The position numbers and the translations under genes are program-made. 64,000 nucleotides of DNA. It comes from Tetrahymena thermophila SB210 (lineage: Eukaryota > Ciliophora > Oligohymenophorea > Hymenostomatida > Tetrahymenidae). Every line of letters begins with the position of its first letter. Position 1 is the first letter of the stretch. The stretch spans positions 1 through 64,000 of the forward strand of contig NW_002475978.1 of NCBI RefSeq assembly GCF_000189635.1, given 5' to 3'. Of the stretch, positions 17,407-63,772 are shown one piece after another. Below the pieces are notes generated by a model, which searched no databases, was not told the origin of the DNA, and worked only from the letters and a program-made list of their open reading frames with translations.

Positions 17407-19078
17407 AGATAAAAATATACAAGATAAAGATAGATGCCTCAAAATTAGGTTTGGTTCTAGCAGATTGTACCAATTTATCTACTCTTTCTTACTCTAAACT
17501 TTTGGTAAAAAAACTAACAAACACAATTAATTTAAAAAACAAATAAATAAATATTGTTTTAATTTATTTAATGCATGAACTAACTAACTTTTTAAATAGT
17601 TTGTTAATTTTTTATCATAAAAATATTTTTTATTTTTAATAATAAATACAGTTTTAACAAAATAACTAATAATGGCTTATATGATTTGAGCTCTGCATTA
17701 AAATAATGCACTAATCTATAAAACTTATCTGGTTAAATTTACTTTATAAATATATTTCTTTTATTCAATCATTTAACAAATAAATAAATGAAAAGATATT
17801 TTTTTAATTGGCTTCTATCTTATTAAAATTTCTAGATGCAAATATTTTTAATAACCTTACTAACTCTTTTATTAACTATTCCTTATTTTTTAGAAAATTT
17901 GAATAATATGATCCAATGGGATTTAATTTAATAAATAAAACTAAAAATATATTTACTGTCACACTTAATATTTTAGGTACTGTATATTTCTTCAAGTATT
18001 TTCATTTACTTTTTAACACTTTAAAATTACAAAAAACAATTAAAAAATAATTAAAATATTTTAAATGGAAACAACATTGGTGATGTTGGGGTTTCAGAGA
18101 TAGGATGAATTTTCATTTATTAAATACATAAAACTTACAACATTAGAGCTTTATTTAAGGTAAAATAGTTCTTTAATTTTATTTACAAGTCATAATTTCT
18201 ATGCTTATTCCTAAATTAAAACAATCTAATAATATTAATAATTATTTATTTATTTATTAAAAATTATTATTATATTTATTATAAATAATTAATTAACACT
18301 AATTTTCAGTATAGCACAATTAAAATTTTATTGTTATTTATTGAAATAATTTATTGATATATCAACTAAAATATCTTTTAAAGTTAAAATAACATTGGGT
18401 AAGAAGGTGTTTCTAACTTAGGTTCTGCTTTAGTGAATTTAACTAGCCTTACATCCTTAAATCTTAATTTGAAGTAATATTTTGAAGAAATTCTAATTTT
18501 TTAATAATAATTAGCATTTTTTTTTTTTGTTTTTCAAAGAAAGACATAAAGGTAATTTTATTATTTGCAAACAGGTATAATAGAATTTAAGCTTAAGGTT
18601 TTTCTCTTTTAGGTAAAGCTTTAGCAAGGTGCTCTAATCTCTAAATTTTGAAAATTTTTCTATAGTAAAACTAATTCATTTATTTAGATAATTTTAATTA
18701 AAAAAACAAATTTAAATAAAATACTTAAATCAATTAATTTTATTTAAAAATAACAATTCTTTAAACATAGGAATATTAATAACTATATAAAATATATTTC
18801 TTAAAGGCACAACTTAATAAGAGATAGTGGAGCATCTGATTTGGTTTTTAATTTAGTTAGCTGTAGTAATATCAAATCTTAGTCTTTTACTGAGGTAAGA
18901 TATTTATTTATTTATTTATTTTATTTTTTTGTTTTTTTTTTAGTTTAAAATAAAATGACACTATTATAAATTATTAATTTTCATAAAAGTTAAAATAATA
19001 TAAGTATCTAAGATGCTAAAATGTTTGTTCAGCATTATTAAACTTTTCTAAACTATCTTATTTGGAGCTTGATCCAAT
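17407..19078 (+). pseudogene. Decaying leucine-rich-repeat gene
   Basis: At least eight LRR-like exons in order on the plus strand. Two are perfect 90-nt phase-2 exons: 18384-18473 (NNIGQEGVSNLGSALVNL..., ending LNLNLK) and 18575-18664 (GFSLLGKALARCSNLQIL). The others are damaged: 17652-17731 is 80 nt, 17894-17976 is 83 nt, 18069-18159 is 91 nt with an acceptor reading GG instead of AG, 18807-18894 is 88 nt and 18990-19078 is 89 nt. The out-of-size exons change frame inside the repeat (for example NNIGDVGVSEI then DEFSFIKYIKL). The first unit, near 17407-17514, reads LGLVLADCTNLSTLSYSKL. No start or clean end found. Same family as 59759-62683. A functional gene with unusual splice sites cannot be fully excluded. 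Confidence 0.65.
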
Positions 19079-37508: not shown

Positions 37509-37580
37509 GGTTCTATAGTATAGCGGTTAGTACTGGGGACTCTAAATCCCTTGACCTGGGTTCGAATCCCAGTAGGACCT
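37509..37580 (+). tRNA. tRNA-Gln(CUA), decodes UAG as glutamine
   Basis: The 72-base cloverleaf folds cleanly. Acceptor GGTTCTA pairs with TAGGACC (one G-T pair), with discriminator T. The D arm contains AGCGGTTAGT. The anticodon stem GGGGA/TCCCT encloses loop CTCTAAA with anticodon CTA. The T arm is CCTGGGTTCGAATCCCAGT with the invariant GTTCGAATCC B box. In the standard code this anticodon would make an amber suppressor. In Tetrahymena, tRNA-Gln species reading UAG (CUA) and UAA/UAG (UUA) are established, and U at position 73 is typical of them. The surrounding genes use TAG as sense, so function and context agree. No intron. Followed directly by a run of seven T. Confidence 0.95.
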
Positions 37581-56373: not shown

Positions 56374-57937
56374 GTTTTATTAAGTTGTATTTTATTGAGA
56401 AATTTTTTGAAATTAAATTAACACTCTATTAAAACCTTTTAAATATAAAAACATATCTAATAACTTTACTAAAGAGATCATTTCTATCTAATTTGCTAAA
56501 AGATATCTTAATACTCAAATTTGGAAGAACTATCACTTCCGTTTAAGTAAAATTTTTCATATTAATATTTTAGTAAGAAAATTATTAAAAAATGTTAAGT
56601 ATCTTGGATCATAAAGAATTCCATAAAATAGCAAAGGTGCTTATAAAATTAAATTAACTATCTCTTCTTAATTTTAGTTATTAAGAAGATACTGTTTATA
56701 TTTTAGATAAAGTATGCTAATAACTGTTAGGACTCTTAAATTATTGCTAAAAACATATTAAATTTAGATTAGGTTTAAGGTATTTAACTATATTTTATTT
56801 TTATTACTTCAAAAATGAAAGAAAATTTTTAGAACTTTGTTAGTTTGAATTATTTCAAAAATATTTTTATTTTATTTAAATAAGTAAGATTTCAATAAAA
56901 AATATTTTTTATAAATAAATTTTTCTTTTAGCTTTTGGTGTTTTCCAAATTTTAATATGAAATCGTGTTCTCAATTAAGAGTCTTGCAAAATTTAAATTT
57001 ACTAAATATAGATGTGATGTAATTTTTCAAATAAATTATTAATTAATTCTATTTAAGCTTGCTTTTCTTTAGATTTACATCAGTAAAAAATTTAGTTTAT
57101 CTATTTTAAAATTACTAATTATGAATAAAAGGGATAAAATATTTAATAAAAAGGATTCTTTTGATTTTGATTTAAAAGAATTGCTATCTAAATGTGTCAA
57201 TCTATAGAAATTACATCTTAATTTGATGTAATCATTTTATGATTAAAATTTATTTAAACTTGAGCTTAATTAATATTGTTAATTATTTTAAATAGAGATC
57301 ATTAAGCAAGCCCATCAATATTAGGTTAAGGTTTAGAAAAATGCGAGTAACTGATATCTTTGAGAGTTTAATTCGCAAGCTTAGAGTATTGGCCAAGACC
57401 GTATAAAATATTTCATAAATTAAAATTAAAATTAAAAAATAAATTTTATTGAAAAGGATAAGTGGGGTAGATTAATTCTTTAATAGTTTAACTAATTGTA
57501 GAAATCTTAAAAATTTGCATTTGGAATTTTCGTAAAGAAAACTTTATCTTTTTATTTAACTTTTAACAATTAAATTCAATTTATTATTTACTCTTTTAAT
57601 TAAAATACAAAATAGGATAAGCTAAATTGATTTATAGGATTTGATAAAAGGATTATAAAAATAACAGTAGTTAGTCACTTTTAGGTTATTGTAATTTTTT
57701 TATTTTATTTTATAAAAGTTAAATCATTTAAAAACTTTTTAATTTGATAAAGATTTATTTAAAATGTTTAAACTATTAAATAAAAGTATTTGTTAGGAAA
57801 TATGTACAGACTTGGTCTAATCGCTTGCAAAATTAAAAAGATTAGTTTGTTTTAATTATGATAATGAATAGGAACCAATAAAAGAAACTTACAATGACAC
57901 TTAGGTTTTTGGTTATTATTTAAAATAAAAAATTTGA
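56374..57937 (+). CDS. Leucine-rich-repeat-like gene, at least eight exons, 5' end unresolved
   Basis: Exons 56374-56546, 56678-56779, 56932-57018, 57096-57227, 57296-57400, 57463-57531, 57616-57684 and 57787-57937. All inner introns are phase 2 and the frame ends in TGA. Repeat-like exons end in the family motif: SNLEELSLPFK, FRLGLR, QLRVLQNLNLLNIDVM, CVNLQKLHLNL, CEQLISLRVQF and CRNLKNLHLEFS. The repeats are less regular than in 59759-62683, with exon sizes from 69 to 132 nt. The C-terminus reads TDLVQSLAKLKRLVCFN then an acidic tail. No start codon was found in the first listed exon; another exon with GYLKRG before 56330 may precede it. Likely a protein-binding LRR solenoid; role unknown. 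Confidence 0.6.
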
Positions 57938-59758: not shown

Positions 59759-62683
59759 ATGACAACATAGGAAACAACATTTGATCAAAGTGAAGTAAAT
59801 AAATAACTACTTTTTATTTATTAATAAGTCTATTTTTTACTAAAATAAGTTTTTGAGTTCTGATCTATCATCACACTAGAAGGTTAACATACAAATAGGG
59901 TAATTTAAATGAATAATAATATTAATGATTTGAGATTATTTTTTCAACTTCCTTGTTTAGATTTATTTTTATATTTTTTTACTACTTCTACTGATAATTA
60001 TTTATTTTCTTCTGTTTTAAGTTATTTAATGAGTATTTTGATAAACTTTTTTATTTTTTTTTGAATATTAACTTATGCTTACTAAAATAACTAGTTACCT
60101 ATACAATCTTGAAAATGGTGACATAGGCACTGCTTTGGGTAATTGTCATAATCTCGAACATTTGACTCTTAACCTTGAGTAAATTAATCTATTATAAAAT
60201 AAACACAATTTTTATTTAGTGTTTTTCTCATTTATTTAGGAATGTATGCTGTTTGTTAATTTGCTTATTTTATTATAAGAAAGAAAAAACTCTTTGATAA
60301 TTTTTTTTACTCTTTTTTTCATAAAATTAAAAAATCTTTAAAAATATAAAAAAGACATAACAAGATGGATGCTACACAAATAGAATCATTAGCATCTAAT
60401 TTAGCGAAATGCGAAAAACTTTCATATTTAGATCTAAATCTTGAGTAAATTTAGTTATATTATTTTAATTGTTAATTAATATATTTATAGCTTAATTAAG
60501 ATTTTTCTTATTTATTTATTTTCTTCAAATAATTAACATTTAATTTTAAGTTTTGATGTACTTACTTCTCTTCTTTTTTAAAAATAGGTGCACTAAAATA
60601 AATCCATAAGGAGCTTCATAATTGATTTCTGAATTAGCAAATCTCAAAAACCTTTAAACTTTAATACTCAATTTAAGGTAAAATTATTAATTTAGATATT
60701 TATTTTTTATTAGCTTTTTTAGAAGTTAAAATCATTTTAAACATTTTAGTTTTTTTTTTGTTATTTCATTAAAACTTTCATTAATAAATAGAAATAATGA
60801 ATTTGATTCAAGCAGTCTTACTGAAATAAGTTCCGCATTAAAAAAATGCACTAACCTCACTGAATTATCACTTGATTTCTAGTAAAAATAATTTACTTGT
60901 TTTTCTTAAAATGATTTCATTTATTTCAGATAAAATTAAAAAGAAAAATAAGCAAGCCACTTTATTTATTTATTTATTTATTTATTTATTTTATTTGTTT
61001 AGATTATTATTAACTTTGAATTAATTATTTGGATAAAAATTTAATTTCTTATTTAACTTAAGTAATAACAAGATAAGATAAGAGGGTGCTATATAATTGG
61101 GTTCAGCTTTAAAACACTTAACTAATATCATAAGTTTTTCGCTCAATCTTGAGTAAACATTTAAAATTTCATTTTTTTCATTTTTTAATAGAAAATATTC
61201 AGAGCTAATTAATGGAAAAAATATATTTTTCTCATTTTTAATGTTGAGTTGATTGCGACAAAAATTATTTATCTTCTATTTTTAATACTTTGACTTAAGT
61301 CATTTTCTTTTTTAAATAGAAATGATTATATTTAAATTGCTATTTTAATAGGGAAAATTATATTTATGGTGAAGGTGCTGAAGCATTAGGATAAGCTATC
61401 GAAAACTATGAAAATCTTTAAAATTTGACTCTCAATCTTGAGTATATTTCTAATAAATATTTACAAAATTAATTAAATCTATTAAAAAAAATCATTTTAC
61501 TTACTTTATATTAGTTTTAAACTAAGTTTTTATTTTTATAGATTTTTGCTTAAATTTTTCTCTGTATTAAAATTAATAATTTTTAAATCTAAATTATTAA
61601 TAGTAAAAATCAGATCTACCCAAAAGCTACAGCTGCTTTATGTACTTCAATAGCCAAGTGTAGTAAACTCACAAATTGGATATTTTCTATCTCGTAAAAA
61701 ATTTGATCTATCTTTTGAAAAATTATTTTATAACTAAAAATTTTTAATGATTAAAAGATATAATTTTATTGATGTAACTGGTGCAAAAGGTATAGGGTAT
61801 ACTTTAGAAAATTGTCCTAATATATAAAAAGCAACTATCAACATCACGTAAAAAATTAAAAATTATGTTAACTTACTACATTTATCATTAATCTCAATAA
61901 AAGTAAAAAAAAGATCCATCCCTTCTATATTTTTTTTCAACCATTTAAATTAATTTTTGTTGTATTTATTTCTGCTTCTTTGATAAATTGAACTAAAAAA
62001 TTGAATTATTATTTTAGAAATAATGGTCTTCATATAAAAGGCACAGAAGCTCTATGTTCTGGATTATAAAAAAGCACCAGTCTCACATAGCTTAGTCTCA
62101 ACATTAGGTAAAAATAAAAAATTTTATTTTTACTCTATTCCTTATGATAATGAATATTGGATAAATCAAAAATTTAATTTAAATATATTAAAAGCTCTAA
62201 CGATATTGGCTCTGGTGTAGAAAGTTTAGCTTCTGCTTTGAAGATTCTACCTAATCTCGACTATTTGTTTCTCAACCTCAAGTAAAAATAATTTATCTCT
62301 TTTTTAAACTAATAAATAATTTTTAATTTGACCATAGTTAAAATGACATTGGTTCGTATGGTGCTAAAATTTTAGCCAACAATTTGAGTGAATCCTAAAG
62401 TCTTAAAAGTTTATATGCAAGTATCTGGTAAAATAATATTATTAATGAGCGCTATTTTTTAAATAAAATAAGAAGAAAAAAATTTTTAAATTAATACGTT
62501 AATTTTTTTAAGAGTCTTTTATCTATTTTATCTTTTTGATATATATTAAACTATCTTTTTTTGTATTTATTATTCTTTTTTAATGAAATTATAAGGTATA
62601 ATAATGTTAGTGAGAGAGCAGAATTTGATATGAAGGAAACACTTTCGAAATTATCATCAGTATCTATTTCAAATTTCTAATGA
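59759..62683 (+). CDS. Leucine-rich-repeat protein, fourteen exons with one repeat per exon, 384 aa
   Basis: Exons: 59759-59794, 59850-59899, 60095-60178, 60355-60444, 60588-60677, 60792-60881, 61063-61152, 61352-61441, 61604-61693, 61758-61847, 62018-62107, 62195-62281, 62338-62427 and 62596-62683, giving 385 codons. Nine internal exons are exactly 90 nt (30 codons). All introns after the first are phase 2, and each repeat exon ends in a motif like LTLNLE, LILNLR or LSLNIR. Repeat bodies resemble ribonuclease-inhibitor/NLR-type LRRs (NN..I...GA..LGSAL..LTNL). There is no signal peptide, membrane helix or effector domain: the product is almost pure LRR solenoid plus a 25-residue N-terminus starting MTTQETTFDQSE. 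Such solenoids bind proteins. A (TTTA) microsatellite at 60961-60991 lies in one intron. Confidence 0.9.
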
Positions 62684-63325
62684 TCAATCAATTTAGTTAG
62701 ATTGATCCTAGAATTACTTTGTTCATAAATAAGATTATTTTTTAATGCTTTATAATATGAATATTAAACAAATAAATAATTAAATAAAAATATTTAGTAA
62801 GTATTCTTTTTTATGTAAGAATGAATGTTTTTTAAGTAATTTTACTAAAATTATTTTTGATTCAATAAAAATTATATACTGAGTAATACTTAAATTTATT
62901 TTTAATTTTTATTAATTAGTATTTAAATTTTAATATAAAATTTACCTAACTTTTAAATAAATTCTTCTTTGTATTATATCATTTTATACGAATTGAGAAA
63001 TTGCAGTACTTAGAGAAGAAGATTAATTATATCATGCAAGACATTTTTTATAATTAATTAAAGTAAAAAAAAATTGTTAATTTAAACTCTTAAAATGGAT
63101 GGGATTAATTTTTTTAAGTCTATTAAATTTTAGTAATTTTAATCTTTAAACGGAATTAGCAGTTCCTAAAAATAAATTCTTTTATTTGATGATTGATGAA
63201 GAAGAAAAACAAACCAATACTTTATATTAATATATTAATTTTGGTTATTTAATCGAAAGATTTTATAATAAATTATTTAGATTCACATTAAATAAATTCG
63301 TATTATTAAAAAATAGGTACTTAAA
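62684..63325. other. Intergenic region
   Basis: AT-rich; nothing recognised. The sequence aaaaaatag just before 63317 could be a splice acceptor for an upstream non-coding exon of the RidA gene. Confidence 0.5.
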
Positions 63326-63772
63326 ATGGCCAGCAGAATATAATCTCTCAACAATTAAATTAACAATAAATAAAAGCTATTAACAGCTGTTACTTCAAGC
63401 AATCTTCCTTAACCTATTGCACCTTTTTCCCATGCAGTAGCCATTAATGCTAACTCTAAATTGCTATTTGTTTCAGGATAACTCTCTCGTGATCCTAAAT
63501 CTGGAAAGTTTGTTCATGCAGATAATGTCGCTCTTTAAACTGAACAAACATTAATCAATCTAAAAGAAGTTTTAAAAGCAGGTGGTAGTGATTTACAGTA
63601 TGTAGTCAAATGCACTGTTTACCTCAACGATATGGCTCATTTTAACCAAGTTAATGAGGTATATGGTAAATTCTTTAATACTGATGTAAAGCCTGCCAGA
63701 GCATGTTTTGCTGTAAGAGAATTACCCGCTGGAGCTAAAGTAGAAATTGAATGTATTGCTGTTGTCCCATGA
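63326..63772 (+). CDS. RidA (YjgF/YER057c/UK114) family enamine/imine deaminase, 148 aa
   Basis: Single exon of 149 codons. RidA proteins are small trimeric enzymes that hydrolyse reactive enamine/imine intermediates released by PLP enzymes such as threonine dehydratase, protecting other PLP enzymes. Family features in order: PIAPFSHAVAINANSKLLFV then SGQLSRDPKSG; QTEQTLINLKEVLKAGGSDL; VVKCTVYLNDMAHFNQVNEV; and KPARACFAVRELPAGAKVEIE with the conserved catalytic-site Arg (PAR) and C-terminal Glu. The extra 25 N-terminal residues (MASRIQSLNNQINNKQK) are longer than in cytosolic members and could be a mitochondrial targeting peptide (inference). TAA is used as Gln in several places, including the conserved SGQ. 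Confidence 0.93.

Follow-up and report, generated by a model that had tools for sequence, protein, structure and literature searches.

A Tetrahymena thermophila leucine-rich repeat gene with nine 90-nt exons as a probable aged member of a published gene family

The gene at positions 59759–62683 (+) of the window, the 64,000-nucleotide stretch of Tetrahymena thermophila DNA analyzed here, can be assigned with high confidence to the published Tetrahymena family of leucine-rich repeat (LRR) genes with 90-bp exons, as an aged member. In T. thermophila and nine relatives, Xiong et al. (2019; PMC6564038) described LRR genes in which exons of exactly 90 bp form arrays, an architecture found in all 10 species studied. 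Their account gives tens of thousands of 90-bp LRR exons, more than 96% of them with phase-2 introns on their flanks, phase 2 for more than 98% of the introns that precede 90-bp exons, and a 90-bp exon in 1,500 of the 1,874 LRR genes of T. thermophila. The gene under study shares with these genes the 90-bp exons in arrays of at least three, the phase-2 introns, the 30-aa units and the species, and nothing in it is different in kind from the family as PMC6564038 presents it. Its architecture is already known in kind from the same species and is not peculiar to this gene. By title, PMC6564038 alone among the matches listed in our literature search dealt with Tetrahymena 90-bp-exon LRR genes, and a search on exon-per-LRR genes gave nothing useful among the matches listed.

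As an example of exon shuffling in nature the family is striking, and it has been known since 2019 (PMC6564038). Our addition to it is modest and twofold: this gene looks like an old, static array, and intron-free relatives with 30/31-aa repeats suggest that the 90-nt length comes from the length of the repeat and not from a splicing rule.

Gene model and exon array

Splice-site enumeration combined with a check of open reading frames gave a 14-exon gene with a 384-aa product in the ciliate code. TAA and TAG, which are present in frame, were read as Gln and TGA as stop. The genome holds a ciliate-type telomerase RNA, and a segment of telomerase reverse transcriptase is identical at 135 of 137 aligned residues to chain 6d6v_A, which we take to be the T. 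thermophila enzyme; both mismatches fall on the initial two residues, at the edge of an exon. GC content is 22%. A tRNA with anticodon CTA at 37509–37580 (+) of the window, named Pyl by a program that uses the bacterial code, is in a ciliate presumably a Gln tRNA reading UAG.

The exons measure 36, 50, 84, eight times 90, 87, 90 and 88 nt, nine of the 14 being exactly 90 nt. Eight of the nine follow one another in a row (60355–62107), against the at least three consecutive 90-bp exons that define an array, and one stands apart at 62338. These LRR exons, each called by the splice model and an LRR score, are exon 4 (60355–60444), exon 5 (60588–60677), exon 6 (60792–60881), exon 7 (61063–61152), exon 8 (61352–61441), exon 9 (61604–61693), exon 10 (61758–61847), exon 11 (62018–62107) and exon 13 (62338–62427). 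Two LRR exons called in the same way are shorter, namely exon 3 (60095–60178; 84 nt, two codons short, LRR score 14.8) and exon 12 (62195–62281; 87 nt, one codon short). The C-terminal exon 14 (62596–62683; 88 nt) rests on the splice model and ends in TGA.

All 13 introns start with GTA and end in AG, are 55–199 nt long and have a GC content of 11–18%, compared with 27–38% in the exons. Intron 1 is in phase 0; the other 12 (introns 2–13) are in phase 2, among them all nine that stand ahead of 90-nt exons. Eleven of the 14 exons (exons 3–13) are consequently symmetric, with phase 2 on both sides, and in-frame skipping or duplication of any of them is therefore possible. The sequence-only reading had described nine 90-nt exons, phase 2 for every intron past the first and a modular architecture that is safe for the reading frame; the splice model and the scan reported below agree with the first two, and the symmetry of exons 3–13 with the third.

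The region and the rest of the window were scanned for open phase-2 candidates of the form AG-exon-GTA at lengths of 60–120 nt in steps of 3. Region 60001–62700 held nine candidates of length 90 and no more than one at any other length. The rest of the plus strand (59.7 kb) held 15 of length 90 and 10–25 at each other length, and the whole minus strand of the window likewise held 15 of length 90, with candidates spread over all lengths. AG and GTA are frequent in AT-rich DNA of this kind, and a pattern of exons might on that account be assembled by chance; however, nine candidates at length 90 against none or one at all other lengths tried, together with 249 further distinct 90-nt LRR-scored exons at other loci of the genome (L025–L073), leave chance assembly with a practically negligible probability. 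A chance origin of the array was rejected on the length scan of the region against the rest of the window. The nine 90-nt exons share a mean nucleotide identity of 48%, compared with 29% when shuffled, and a mean amino acid identity of 27%.

Models of the 5′ end were enumerated from the ATG at 59759, with GTA donors, AG acceptors and one or two introns ahead of the 84-nt exon. Four models were open, all with three exons up to 60178, and their products are 384, 374, 373 and 371 aa long. The 384-aa model is the one with exon 1 at 59759–59794 and exon 2 at 59850–59899. Exon 1 (36 nt, MTTQETTFDQSE) has an A-rich start context and a GTAAAT donor and is followed by the phase-0 intron of 55 nt. Exon 2 (50 nt), entered in phase 0 and left in phase 2, ends on a strand-like VNIQI segment, and the GC peak within 59795–60094 falls on it, at 59851.

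A second ATG lies at 60075 (+), in frame with exon 3 and within intron 2 of the 14-exon model. The 12-exon model that starts there is likewise open (362 aa) and is without exons 1 and 2; it was set aside after the enumeration of upstream exons. In our judgement the 14-exon model, with its two small predicted 5′ exons, is to be preferred, because the ATG at 59759 lies in a run of A whereas that at 60075 does not, and because the strand-like VNIQI ends exon 2 where the 84-nt exon would come next.

Predicted product and exon skipping

A phmmer search of the PDB (E up to 0.001) matched the 384-aa product to 20 distinct sequences, while reversed and shuffled copies of the product had no matches each. 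The top match (E 3.7e-11) is a chain named Tubulin alpha-3; since this chain aligns as an LRR protein, we take the name to be a probable labelling error. Ribonuclease inhibitors came next (E 1.2e-10 and weaker), followed by several chains named ‘leucine-rich repeat protein’, DRC5 and other ciliary proteins, and last by NLRC4 (9.5e-4). Pfam returned LRR_4 (5.4e-5) and LRR_6 (2.2e-4), both under the curated cut-offs. At E up to 0.01 the Pfam matches were LRR only, with no signalling domain among them, and the others were at chance level (E 0.03–0.77). The LRR nature that had been proposed for the product is thus borne out by the PDB search with its controls at zero, with the Pfam LRR matches below cut-off. 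No transmembrane stretch was evident in the product, whose maximum 19-residue hydropathy is 1.00.

The nine 90-nt exons follow the consensus xxNxIxxxGAxxLxSxLxxxxNLxxLxLNx. On the translated repeats, each 90-nt exon is shown to correspond to one predicted 30-aa LRR unit, and the introns between repeats to lie in phase 2, right after the LxLxL segment. Since these introns occupy the same position in the repeat, a unit could be gained or lost without a break in the frame. We infer that each exon would encode a loop, a helix and the next strand, the intron following directly after the strand.

The product resembles LRR proteins of the ribonuclease inhibitor type, as judged from sequence, and is predicted to be a soluble LRR protein similar to ribonuclease inhibitor and probably a protein-binding module. 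Ribonuclease inhibitor (3tsr, 1dfj, 1z7x) is among the solved LRR proteins closest to the Tetrahymena product by sequence. Its repeats are 28 and 29 aa long, whereas the units of the Tetrahymena gene are 30 aa long, and its ligand is not transferable. A recognition role for the product, in its soluble form included, is conceivable only; bacteria recognition was put forward as a hypothesis for the 90-bp-exon LRR genes in PMC6564038.

A comparison with vertebrate NLR proteins bears on how the exons might be used. According to PMC6642158, the LRR domain of NLRP3, modelled on ribonuclease inhibitor, has repeats of 28 and 29 aa, and one of each is encoded by every exon of 171 bp. The vertebrate NLR LRR domains, as described there for NLRP3, share with the Tetrahymena gene a strict exon modularity, the keeping of the frame and a constant position of the exon border in the repeat. 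The strictly modular NLRP3 exons are alternatively spliced (PMC6642158), and the frame-safe exons of gene 59759–62683 would allow exon skipping in the mRNA to yield isoforms with differing numbers of LRRs, as in human NLRP3. Symmetric phase is, however, expected from repeat duplication alone, and because duplication gives the same phase, the symmetry is no evidence for regulated skipping; we consider such isoforms unlikely. That regulated skipping would supply varied solenoids from one locus for the recognition of food bacteria or of self/non-self is more doubtful still and highly improbable. The terms ‘alternative splicing’ and ‘exon skipping’ are absent from the main text of PMC6564038.

Relatives in the genome and the 90-nt length

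The genome searched comprises 445 contigs with a total of 101 Mb. Allowing at most one mismatch, we located the exon-end pattern CTTAACCTTGAGTAAA at 456 places, gene 59759–62683 included, compared with four for the same pattern read backwards. Loci were collected by exon-end pattern (L044–L073), by DNA similarity (L025–L043) and by tblastn (L003–L022). The pattern loci are a sample of 30 of the 456 places; picking them by a conserved exon end biases the sample to young arrays, and the choice of L025–L073 as a whole, by similarity or conserved exon end, carries the same bias.

An AG exactly 90 nt ahead of the donor was present in 60 of 67 cases in the pattern loci and in 29 of 36 in the similarity loci. 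For the tblastn loci the count was 1 of 21, and for the remainder of the window 2 of 25, one of these two being a second LRR gene. A distance of 67 nt between AG and donor was frequent as well (45 of 67 and 17 of 36), and such an AG probably lies within the conserved exon. With lengths of 84–96 nt tried, 249 of the 271 distinct LRR-scored exons in L025–L073 are 90 nt long, as found with a score that favours 90, since the 90-nt exons of gene 59759–62683 served to train it and other lengths are penalised. The others measure 87 nt (16), 84 nt (5) and 96 nt (1), and at least one of the 16 is in fact a 90-nt exon that was called from a second acceptor. The negative stretch used for the score itself held LRR exons, two matches above 20 in it being the second LRR gene of the window.

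The best 20 tblastn loci represent 16 non-overlapping places; as tblastn takes no account of introns, they lean towards long open frames. The same LRR score, trained on this gene, places most or several repeats 30 or 31 aa apart in 19 of the 20, along with some multiples and a few odd spacings; L012 contains only two LRR matches. No TGA lies between LRR matches in 18 of the 20 loci, and one each lies in L012 and L022. Loci L003, L004, L006, L008, L014, L016 and others are intron-free arrays in one frame, with up to 26 matches mostly at 30/31-aa spacing. These intron-poor LRR genes of Tetrahymena, which may correspond to group I of PMC6564038, have 30/31-aa repeats that fit the same score profile, but encode many repeats per open frame instead of one per exon as in gene 59759–62683. 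Because intron-free paralogous arrays keep 30/31-aa repeats, the 30-aa unit is independent of introns, and the exact 90-nt exon probably reflects the length of the protein repeat combined with one intron per repeat.

Age of the array

The array would have arisen by tandem duplication of a unit of exon plus intron, as published for the family (PMC6564038); its expansion would then have halted and its repeats diverged. The origin proposed in PMC6564038 is exon shuffling via unequal crossing over, in which a retrotransposon may have taken part. Exon shuffling, which the sequence-only reading had named as a route to change in LRR number, is thus also the published explanation for the family.

Among the first eight 90-nt exons of the gene, the identity of neighbours is 0.46–0.58 in all seven pairs. 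At the other loci (L025–L073), 231 neighbouring 90-nt pairs were counted with the same LRR score, which favours 90, and 210 of them are distinct since the loci overlap; within this set, biased as it is to young arrays, identity has a median of 0.80 and the gap one of 255.5 nt. Identity is at least 0.90 in 20 of the 210 pairs and at most 0.58 in 11, and 18 gaps are no longer than 200 nt. Relative to these family arrays the neighbouring exons of gene 59759–62683 are strongly diverged, and recent exon duplication within it was rejected on this comparison. Elsewhere in the genome, the match with the best score is 71% identical over about 174 nt, with 40 of 53 candidates scored; among the matches listed, nucleotide identity ranged from 66 to 96% and was highest over short stretches. 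Direct repeats within the gene reach 54 nt, in imperfect copies. With neighbour identity so low, introns of 55–199 nt set against the median gap of 255.5 nt, and the best match elsewhere at this level, the array looks old and without recent repeat gain.

The same comparison bears on whether the gene actively generates new repeat numbers through ongoing exon duplication or loss. Its 11 symmetric exons would suit such a role, and neighbouring exons are up to 0.99 identical in other arrays of the genome. All seven of its own pairs, however, fall in a range to which just 11 of the 210 pairs elsewhere descend, and the best-scoring match elsewhere likewise speaks against ongoing duplication; we therefore regard this role as very unlikely, and the ‘rapid change’ of LRR number that had been suggested finds no support for this gene. 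Decay into a pseudogene would account for the diverged repeats and for the two shortened LRR exons, but all 14 exons are open, the phases are consistent, the splice sites are GTA..AG and the frame is maintained through the shortened exons, and a pseudogene is accordingly improbable. An aged array with an intact reading frame is the reading that we prefer.

Intron length was compared with the groups of PMC6564038, in which group II has introns near 56 bp (the peak) and is without intragenic nucleotide repeats, and young group III genes are those masked by one of eight consensus repeat sequences (CRS), with a main intron-length peak, not a strict rule, at about 257 bp. The median gap of 255.5 nt in L025–L073 is close to the group III peak. 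In gene 59759–62683 the introns measure 55, 56, 64 and 87 nt, with nine of 114–199 nt; most exceed the group II peak and none of the 13 reaches the main group III peak, and the intron lengths of the gene fall between the two groups as given in PMC6564038. Many places in the genome are similar in DNA sequence to the 3′ half of exon 6 and the beginning of the intron after it, and 34 of the 85 matches listed start at query positions 750–795, in exon 6 (counted by eye). This resemblance could represent CRS masking. A simple assignment to group II, with which the low identity of neighbouring exons was also compared, is weakened because many introns exceed 100 nt and because exon 6 with its intron resembles many loci.

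Other LRR-like sequence occurs in the window. A second LRR gene or remnant at 17412–18894 (+) has 90-nt phase-2 exons at 18384–18473 and 18575–18664 and weaker repeats at 17412, 17653 and 18808. A weak LRR-like match lies at 57288–57374 (+; score 19.2), and a weak LRR-like candidate exon of 93 nt at about 2588–2680 (−; score 12.4). Downstream of the gene, an ordinary open frame of 148 aa at 63326–63772 (+) matches Ribonuc_L-PSP (RidA-type; E 1.2e-36).
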